Positions 23,119-29,836 of a DNA stretch of 54,471 bases are shown piece after piece. The translations under genes and the position numbers were made by a program. The first letter of the stretch is position 1. Every line of letters begins with the position of its first letter. The stretch is from Pilatotrama ljubarskyi (lineage: Eukaryota > Basidiomycota > Agaricomycetes > Polyporales > Polyporaceae): NCBI GenBank assembly GCA_022385805.1, contig MU277771.1:1-54471 (forward strand), read 5' to 3'. The notes beneath the pieces are model-generated. The model saw only the letters and a list, made by a program, of their open reading frames with translations, ran no database searches and was not told the origin of the DNA.

Positions 23119-26100
23119 ATGTCGACTTCGCCTGTGGAAATAGCCATAGTCAGTTCATTCGCCATAGGTGTTGATGTAATCGCTGACGACCTGTCCTCTG
23201 CAGGTGGGGATTGCGGCAGAGCTTCCCAGTGGTGCCTGCAACGACACCAACCTCGACCATCGTTCCTTTTTCCGCTTCCTGCTGGAAGGCAGGGAGGCCT
23301 ACGAAAGAATACCGCTAGAGCGCTTCAATATCCACGGGTATGCATCTCATTGAGCTTCCTGATGGCGTCGCTGGTTGAAGCATCCTTCCACAGTCTCGTT
23401 GGAAGCGGTCTCGGCAAATGTGCCACTGAAACTGGCACCTTTCTGAAGCATGTTCACCACTTCGATCATCTCGAGTTCGGTGTCACCAGCAAGGATGCCC
23501 GCATGATGCCGCTGAGCACACGCAAACTCATTGAGGTCGCCTTCCTTAGCCTTCTCGACTCCGGGATTGATTACCGCGGACGGAATGTCGGATGTTATAC
23601 TGCTGGCGTCGCCTTCGATATGTTCTCGATCTCTGGACATGTGCGTACTCTGTTACCGTCTCTACGAGCATACTTCTACAACTTGTTTGTAGGATGACGA
23701 CGAGGCCCGTGGCTCGTTCGCATCTGGCCCCGCCATGGTGGCCAACCGAGTCTCTTACTATTTGGACCTCCGCGGCCCGTCAATCCCCATCGATACAGCG
23801 TGCAGTTCCAGCCTGACAGCTACGCATATGGCCGTTCAGGCCATAGTGCATGGCGAATGCGAGGCTGCAGTCGTCGGGGGCTCCCAGATCAACCATAGGC
23901 GAGCAGCACTTTCTCAGTCCGGAGAGTATTGCGCTCCCTCACTGACTGCCGGGTGCCCAGATTTTCCGACTGGCTCTCGTATTCACAAGGCGGGGTGCTG
24001 TCCCCGGACGGCAAGTGCAAGCCATTCGATACCTCTGCAGACGGGTGAGCTGACCCTGACGGCCCAAAAGAGGCTCCATCTGATTGCTGCACCCCGTTAT
24101 GTAGCTTTGGAAGAGGAGAAGGTGTCGTTGGCATAGTACTGAAGCCGCTACACGCTGCTTTGCGAGATGGTGACAGGGTTTACGCCACTGTGGGTGATTT
24201 GTCTTAGGTGTAGCATTGAGTCTTCGGCGTTGATCTTGCTCTATGTGTAGATCCTCGGAACGGGCATAAACTCCTCCGGATCTCTCGCGCCTGTCAACGC
24301 GCCCGTCGCGTCCGCACAGCGTGAGGCCATGCAGCGTGCTTTCGCCCAGGCCGCGCGTGACCCGCGCCACGTCGATTTTCTGGAGCTACATGCGACCGGG
24401 ACCGCAACGGGAGATCCAACCGAAGCTAACTGGGTCGGTGAGGAGTTCAGCAGAGACGACGAGTTAGTGATCGGCAGTGTCAAGGGCAACATCGGGTTCG
24501 TTGTCTTTTTCACGTAGTCGCGGACGATACTGACCGAAGACGGATCAACAGGCACTTGGAGATAACCGCCTTCCTCGCCTCCCTGTGCAAGGTCTGCAGC
24601 ATCTTTGAGACTGGCGTGGTGCCGCCCAATGCCAACTTCAAGACGCCGAACCCTGCGATCAAGTGGAAGCAATTCAAGATGCGTGTCCCTGTCGAGCCAG
24701 AACGTCTGGTTGTTCACTCGCCTTCGGGGCGTGCTCTCGTGGCCATGACGAGCTCCGGTATCGGAGGGTCAAATGCGCACTGCGTTGTGGAAGGTCCACC
24801 GCTGATCCCGCCGAAGGCGTCTTCGTTCTGGTCTGTTATGTCCGGCACCCCGCTACTCCTCATAGCTGGAGGACTATCTCCCCGGTCGGCTGCTGCCGTT
24901 TGTGACAGCATTTCTGAGCGGTGGCCACTCTGGACTGGGAATATCCACGAGGCAGCTGCACGGGAATTTGGACGCCGGGCACGCTCCATGACTTGGCGGT
25001 CATTCGCGATCAAGAACGACGGAGTTTTGGGCAAATTTGGAGACCCTATCCTGGCGCCTAAGACAAGACCATCAATCGTCTTCGTCTTCAGCGGGCAAGG
25101 ACCGCAGTATTACGCAAGTACGTAACACAAGTCGTAATTTGGGCTACCGTCTCTGAGTGCTGCGTTCCAGTGGGCCGCGAGCTGTTCCAATCCTGTCTGG
25201 TTTTCCGGAAGAGCATATTGCAACTCGACAGGATCTACCAAAGCGTCCTTGGCGAGTCGCTTCTGGAGCTTACGGGGCTCTTCGACGAAGCAAGACATTC
25301 CGATCCTTTGGGCGACATCTGGCCCATCGCAGTGACCATCGTCTCCCTCACCATGCTGCAGATTGCCCTCTTCGATACTCTGGCCGCACTCGGGATTAGA
25401 CCAGATGTCCTTCTTGGTCACTCTGCTGGTGAGACGCCGCTTCTGTATGCTTCCGGAGCAGGTTCCCGCGCCCTTGCCATGGAGCTCGCCATAGCGCGTG
25501 GTAAGGCGATGTCCCTCATGGAGAGAGAGAACGGTACAATGGCGGCACTCTCCTGCTCTTCTGGGCGCGCTGCCGAGCTCATCGCTGAAATCGTGGCGGA
25601 GCTAGGTCCCGGCGTTCTGGACGTAGGTTGTTACAATGCTCCGGGCGCTGTCACGCTCTCTGGACACGCTCGTCATATCGATGAGGCGGTGAAGAAAGCA
25701 TCCGAGGCTGGAATCTTTGCCCGTCGCCTGCGCACTCGCATCCCCGTCCACTCTGCCATGATGGATCTCTGCGCGCAAGAGTATCAGATACTCGTGGGCG
25801 ATGTCTTCTCGCGTTACCGCGTTGACCAACCCACAGTCGAGACCTGGTCAACGAAGACAGGGACCCTTCTTGAGTCCGCCTACGACGCACAGTACTTTTG
25901 GGACAACACCCGCGGACCTGTGAACTTCAGCGACGCCCTTCAAGGGATTGCACAGCACCATCCGCACGCGATCTATGTCGAGCTAGGTCCTCATCCAGTG
26001 TTGGCCAGCTACATCTCGTCGATGGCTGGCAAGAGCGCTGTCGTGACTTGTCCCCTGCGTAGAGCGAAAGCTCCCGAGAAGCGTCCCGTGGAGGTCGCCA

Positions 26101-29100: not shown

Positions 29101-29836
29101 GAGGAACTCGATTTTCTGGTGACATTCTCGTCGGTGTCAGGCATGTTTGGGAACTCTGGGCAGACGAACTACGCAAGGTGGGCGTCCATACTGCTTCGGT
29201 GACTGCAGTCCTCGAGTTCTCATGCATCTGCTACAGTGCGAACACGTCGCTGGCTGGCTTGACGAAGAAGTACCGCAACGCAGTGTGTATCGTAGCTCCT
29301 GCGATCCTGGACACGTCGACCATTAAGGGGGAGCTCTTCGGCTCCGTATCCGCTGTGCACCTCAAGCACCTGACCGAATGGGGTTTGACGAGTACAGGTA
29401 CTTCAACATTTCTAGCAGCGCTTTATCTGCTAACTAGAAGGGAACAGAGTTCTTCAGCTACGTGGAAGATGCCATTCGCTGCGTGGCCAGTCGTCCGGTA
29501 TGGCAGTATATCCCGGCGTTCGACTGGCAGCTGGTGCAAGCGAATATGGGTTCCTCTGCGCTGTACGATCACCTCGTGCCCGCTCGGTCCTCCTCCGAAG
29601 ATCTTGTCATGGTCGACAACACTCCTGCGAGCTCGACCGTGCATGACGTCGTCTGCAAGGTGCTCGACCTTTCGCCGGAGGATCTATCGCTCGACGTTCC
29701 TTTCACGTCCTACGGTCTTGATTCCCTTTCCGCTGCGGTGCTGTCGCATGCCCTGCGGCCGTTCCTCGCCATATCGCAGCTTCAACTGCTGGCCGATGTT
29801 ACCATGCGCGAATTGGAGGCTCGGATTGGGGCGTGA
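23119..29836 (+). CDS. Highly reducing-type iterative type I polyketide synthase (KS-AT-DH-ER*-KR-ACP)
   Basis: Sixteen exons close in phase to 1,959 residues: 23119-23148, 23204-23337, 23394-23640, 23693-23898, 23961-24044, 24105-24189, 24251-24495, 24552-25117, 25171-26390, 26452-26613, 26666-26780, 26836-26977, 27028-27230, 27287-29177, 29237-29397, 29448-29836. KS: Cys174 in DTACSSSL, His309 in ELHATGT, His345 in NIGHLE. AT: Ser617 in GHSAGE. DH: His923 and Asp1091, but the HxxxGxxxxP motif reads HVIKNEPILS (Gly to Asn, Pro to Ser). Residues about 1380-1560 have the shape of an enoyl reductase (VLVRITGAAIG, TIVVTHADTTIGAQVAKVY) but a poor cofactor motif. KR: GGVGSLG at 1629, Ser1762, Tyr1775. 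ACP: phosphopantetheine Ser1923 in GLDSLSA. No methyltransferase and no release domain follow. Intron 23899-23960 is apparently GC-AG. The product is probably an unsaturated or hydroxylated chain. Confidence 0.9.

Follow-up and report, generated by a model that had tools for sequence, protein, structure and literature searches.

How a polyketide synthase (PKS) releases its chain sets whether the polyketide is an acid, an aldehyde, an alcohol or a lactone. Two basidiomycete iterative reducing PKSs, LpaA of Laetiporus and PPS1 of BY1, are polyene synthases with unsaturated products and work with an enoyl reductase (ER) reported as inactive; LpaA also has methyltransferase (MT) and thioesterase (TE) domains (PMC7473843). 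The ER of the strobilurin synthase StPKS1, another basidiomycete reducing PKS, was judged probably inactive, and this protein carries a partial hydrolase and a methyltransferase at its C terminus (PMC6158276). According to PMC11678574, a Taiwanofungus PKS of the form KS-AT-DH-KR-ACP-TE was placed with partially reducing PKSs of the 6-methylsalicylic acid (6-MSA) type. LovB from Aspergillus terreus is reported as a working synthase with a psiKR-psiER-KR arrangement and an inactive ER of the MDR fold, from which the product is freed by a separate, trans-acting thioesterase, LovG. Here we describe a PKS gene in a 54,471-nt stretch of Pilatotrama ljubarskyi DNA (the window; positions 1 to 54,471 of contig MU277771.1, below C102, in the 33.1-Mb assembly GCA_022385805.1). 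Its product, P0001, lacks a release domain.

P0001 shares with LpaA, PPS1 and StPKS1 the reducing basidiomycete type and a probably inactive ER, which in P0001 has lost its motif within an MDR fold; with LovB it shares the psiKR-psiER-KR order and the MDR fold of the ER. Unlike LpaA it has neither MT nor TE by Pfam. It also differs from StPKS1 in lacking the C-terminal hydrolase and methyltransferase, and from LovB, which has a CMeT domain, a condensation domain after the acyl carrier protein and an ER supplied in trans. We read P0001, with a probability of about 0.7, as an intact iterative reducing PKS of polyene type with a structural psiER, whose release domain was lost in the ancestor of one branch and whose chain would be released outside the polypeptide. 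We infer that the enzyme is active, that its product is of polyene type and that release occurs in trans.

Gene and domains of P0001

The gene occupies 23119..29836 on the forward strand, as do all its domains below. Our hand-built splice model joined exons 23119-23148, 23204-23337, 23394-23640, 23693-23898, 23961-24044, 24105-24189, 24251-24495, 24552-25117, 25171-26390, 26452-26613, 26666-26780, 26836-26977, 27028-27230, 27287-29177, 29237-29397 and 29448-29836. These 16 exons closed in phase over 5,880 nt, encode 1,959 aa and contain one stop, at the end; their translation is exactly that of P0001, whose database entry is named ketoacyl-synt-domain-containing protein. A first-pass annotation, made from the letters of the window by a model, had proposed just such an intact 16-exon PKS. 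The 15 introns measure 50-62 nt each; 14 are GT-AG and one, intron 4 (23899..23960), is GC-AG. In a paralogue, P0003 (contig C93, 63726-70394; 1,948 aa, again identical to our splice model), intron 4 is GT-AG, and the 16 exons match or nearly match those of the window gene in length.

Pfam and alignment placed the ketosynthase (KS) at aa 7-373 (23137..24639, introns included; PF00109 and PF02801; Cys174, His309, His345), the acyltransferase (AT) at aa 520-816 (25078..26021; PF00698; Ser617, His726) and the dehydratase (DH) at aa 911-1175 (26304..27372; PF14765 above its cut-off, PF21089 just below; His923, Asn927, Ser932, Asp1091, His1095). The ketoreductase (KR) lies at aa 1624-1791 (28717..29279; PF08659) with its NADPH motif and Lys1738-Ser1762-Tyr1775-Asn1779 intact; we take this set and the SDR motifs to have their usual roles in it. 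The acyl carrier protein (ACP) ends the protein at aa 1894-1956 (29636..29824; PF00550; Ser1923). PKS_DH_N and KAsynt_C_assoc scored slightly below their Pfam cut-offs. Alignment thus located all the KS, AT, KR and ACP active-site residues that had been called earlier, and every residue tested was kept except at the Gly and Pro positions of the DH motif. Up to E 0.1, Pfam found no MT, ER, TE or thioester reductase (R) family in P0001, in line with the earlier call of no C-methyltransferase and no thioesterase.

Between DH and KR, an AlphaFold2 (AF2) model aligned with the psiKR-ER-KR regions of human FASN and EcPKS2 delimited a psiKR structural subdomain (aa 1245-1369, 27580..27954) and a psiER with a shortened MDR fold (aa 1370-1590, 27955..28617). 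The first-pass annotation had proposed a structure prediction here, and AF2 returned a confident MDR fold (pLDDT 95.1) that matched solved MDR enzymes by Foldseek and VIA-align. In A2 and A3, the alignments made for structure, a fragment from the window stands beside rows of full length, and some 20 residues at the start of A3 were misplaced. General MDR oxidoreductases scored as well as enoyl reductases against the model, so the fold by itself gives only MDR; we call the domain an ER because of its place between psiKR and KR. The glycine-rich NADPH motif is replaced by THADTTIGAQ (28312-28341), and the ER is probably a non-functional one of MDR type, judging from these residues. The MDR outline, the motif position and the probable loss of function claimed earlier all stood. 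The domain is no oddity: THADTTIG-like letters are widespread among the homologues and solved MDR enzymes share the fold, which ruled it out as a novelty.

Its domains and active-site residues, together with an MDR-fold ER lacking the glycine-rich motif, place P0001 in the Agaricomycete KS-AT-DH-psiER-KR-ACP family. It is not of the reductase-terminated (Grifola PKS22) form, since it has no C-terminal PF07993.

Loss of the release domain

We compared P0001 with the best 120 of 7,050 homologues. In some relatives, Grifola P0008 and Taiwanofungus P0010 among them, the ACP is followed by PF07993. Tails of at least 400 aa occur in 51 of the 120, and all 51 contain both TGxxGxxG and YxxSK. A KS-AT tree of 78 homologues was built by a quick method with SH-aLRT support only and no outgroup; it omits P0009, P0059, P0082 and P0087 as partial, keeps only eight of P0073 to P0120 and holds no 6-MSA synthase. 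In this tree seven proteins (two from P. ljubarskyi, three from Cubamyces, two from Trametes) form a Trametes-group branch with support of 100, to which the partial T. pubescens P0009 adds an eighth member from outside the tree. The C-termini of all seven lie within 6 aa of P0001's last residue. The sister of the branch (support 99) is P0008, the putative polyketide synthase 22 of Grifola frondosa. P0008 is 60% identical to P0001 over its full length, with the same domain order, no MT by Pfam and the psiER motif; it differs in a 432-aa C-terminal tail with a PF07993 reductase and in the Pro of its DH motif. On the sequences, the missing release domain, a Pro-to-Ser change in the DH and erosion of the KR are traits of this one branch, and the sister retains the thioester reductase. 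Our literature searches, which mostly did not reach subscription papers, recognised no paper describing the branch.

Across the tree the R-less state requires at least 11 changes, so it recurs; nine are forced by well-supported branches, and elsewhere gene models may be truncated. It is very improbable that the domain is missing merely from the gene model. For the other species the R-less state is indeed read only from gene models, but the readable DNA of C102 and C93 holds no R-like stretch at either paralogue, and no remnant followed the stop (best match 28 bits). With the same queries, 50 of the 51 long tails of relatives scored at least 171 bits; the exception, P0034, went unmatched because its 1,131-aa tail had been cut at 460. 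N-filled DNA (C102 54472-65729; C93 1-13848 and 32957-33321) lay outside this search. P0034 itself (Daedalea quercina, 3,163 aa) combines AMP-binding families and PF07993 in its tail, as if an A-T-R unit of the nonribosomal peptide synthetase (NRPS)-like type had been fused after the ACP.

Release enzymes elsewhere were searched for exon by exon with only the best candidates scored, a procedure that may miss genes. No free-standing R gene appeared on C102 or C93: PF07993 gave 17 matches genome-wide (C16, C27, C48, C19, C99, C6, C38), and a search with the P0008 R domain returned 19 (C27, C99, C19, C16), none of them on the two PKS contigs. The genes on C16, C19 (both), C99 and C27 near 260 kb were rejected as free-standing reductases because AMP-binding pieces lie upstream, several scoring below the Pfam cut-off, and we read them as A-T-R NRPS-like genes. 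The R parts on C19, C27 (near 260 kb) and C99 are ~36-46% identical to the PKS release domain. A further R-type match lies on C27 near 146 kb. Neither PKS contig yielded a thioesterase; the genome has one match to PF03959 (C49), one to PF00975 (C35) and 16 to PF12697. LovG is an FSH1-family enzyme, and the one FSH1-family stretch found lies on C49, not on a PKS contig. No R-bearing family member was seen among the at least four places returned by a KS search (the genes for P0001 and P0003, a further PKS on C35, and fatty acid synthase alpha on C33). A Pfam scan of 55 distinct open reading frames (ORFs), out of 132 of at least 130 aa in the window, detected no release enzyme; introns break most genes and most ORFs had no match, so this incomplete scan could miss one.

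In Artomyces (P0021, P0026, P0028, P0029), Neolentinus (P0023, P0025) and Daedaleopsis (P0033, P0050), contigs of equal length suggest that R-less and R-bearing members sit side by side on one contig, in which case the two forms might act jointly.

Dehydratase and ketoreductase in the branch

The DH keeps His923 and Asp1091, as called earlier, but its HxxxGxxxxP motif, read as HVIKNEPILS, had been listed as altered. The position was right, and one of the two changes is unusual. At the Gly position (927), G occurs in 69 of the 112 non-branch homologues, D in 16, N in 15, E in 7, S in 3, H in 1 and a gap in 1, and the branch itself has N in three of eight and G in five; Asn927 was thus dropped as an anomaly. 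At the position of Ser932 (codon 26367..26369), Pro stands in all 111 scorable homologues outside the branch (one of the 112 has a gap) and Ser in all eight inside: a genuine change confined to this branch. Asp1091 is kept in 120 of 120; at position 1095, 114 of them have H, four have Q and two have N. The first-pass annotation had allowed that its variants might be standard among homologues. This is so for the Asn and the ER motif, not for the Ser; the record is corrected here, in that neither a dead ER nor Asn at this DH position is odd among mushroom PKSs.

One paper picks out bacterial DHs that shift double bonds by loss of both the motif Pro and the later Q/H of DxxxQ/H (PMC9600693). We therefore asked whether Ser932 might make the DH of P0001 a double-bond shifter or a weak dehydratase, giving a shifted polyene or a partly hydroxylated chain. 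The Pro is gone throughout the branch, but His1095 is kept, so P0001 shows only one of the two marks. LpaA and PPS1 shift double bonds (PMC7473843), and the Pro is present in P0103, a Laetiporus relative distinct from LpaA. We consider this change of function rather doubtful; it would be compatible with a polyene-type synthase released in trans.

The KR is less uniform. At least one non-standard KR residue occurs in five of the eight branch members versus 3 of 110 others (P0082 and P0087 excluded for want of an aligned KR) and in none of 26 other R-less proteins. Since the rows are related, the Fisher value for this contrast is no true probability. The ratio of the within-branch rate to that of the rest is 0.080 for KR and 0.068 for psiKR, against 0.043-0.052 for KS, AT, DH, psiER and ACP. 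In P0003 the KR lacks its catalytic Lys and two glycines of the NADPH motif, with the frame still open. The nearest relative of P0003 is Trametes cingulata P0004, not P0001, which suggests from the tree that the P. ljubarskyi duplication predates the split of these species. P0004 lacks the KR NADPH motif in the alignment, has other residues in place of the catalytic Lys, Ser and Tyr, and reads GPDSL in the ACP; the gene may be in decay or badly modelled.

Relaxed constraint after loss of the release domain could thus have left P0001 a synthase in decay, yielding no product although its frame is open. We regard this as unlikely for P0001 itself, which keeps its active-site residues outside the DH motif. 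The terminal branch leading to P0001 is not lengthened for KR relative to KS (0.136 versus 0.138), and dN/dS between P0001 and P0003 is ~0.07 for KS and AT (KR 0.31, overall 0.14), rough values because dS is 1.0-2.4. That roughness weighs against reading P0001 as an active synthase with release in trans, and so do three further points. The branch may be decaying, given its altered KR residues; DHs with Ser at the motif Pro are a mixture of domains annotated as active and inactive (PMC9600693); and the incomplete search near the PKS found no free-standing reductase or thioesterase, which leaves a trans-release partner unsupported.

Neighbouring genes and the fate of the chain

A possible cluster member lies ~4 kb downstream of the PKS, an MFS transporter exon (33839..34327, forward strand; PF07690, 35.8 bits against a cut-off of 33.4). 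Elsewhere in the window Pfam matched, among others, LysM (5042-6088), a GMC oxidoreductase (7614-8327), a methyltransferase (12277-13074), an AA9 lytic polysaccharide monooxygenase (43247-43993), Spo7 (45285-46253) and DnaJ (49076-49648). At a blastn E of 1e-10 the readable parts of C102 and C93 have only three stretches in common: the PKS, a 267-base repeat and an enoyl-CoA hydratase with weak PF00378 matches (window 6383-7490, forward strand; C93 45801-46933, reverse strand). A DNA search of the genome found only these two hydratase copies, which are 80% identical and lie ~16 kb from the window PKS and ~17 kb from P0003. Frame changes and a short deletion disrupt the window copy, and on that ground the duplicated hydratase was rejected as a release enzyme.

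In the reading that we prefer, the KS, AT and ACP of P0001 would extend the chain and its KR, probably with the DH, would process it, the MDR-fold psiER serving only to hold the modifying region together. With the psiER purely structural and no C-methylation, each cycle would leave a double bond, or a hydroxyl if the DH is weak. The C-terminal thioester reductase, by which relatives should release the chain, would have been lost in the branch ancestor, and release would therefore fall to a separate enzyme or to hydrolysis: by our expectation a distant thioesterase or reductase first, then plain hydrolysis. An unsaturated chain released in trans, proposed in the first-pass annotation, remains reasonable given the missing MT and release domain and the probably dead ER; a partner close to the gene did not emerge from the incomplete scan.

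It is possible, though we hold it tentatively, that the branch records a natural reprogramming series, from a reductively released polyene to a less reduced chain freed in trans, by way of R loss, the DH change and KR loss in several species while KS, AT and ACP residues were kept. Both stages, with the KR intact and damaged, would then stand in one genome. An R-less branch beside an R-bearing sister, with intact and damaged KR paralogues in P. ljubarskyi, offers a comparison for the reprogramming of fungal PKSs, and the same comparison bears on what frees the chain when a PKS has no release domain.
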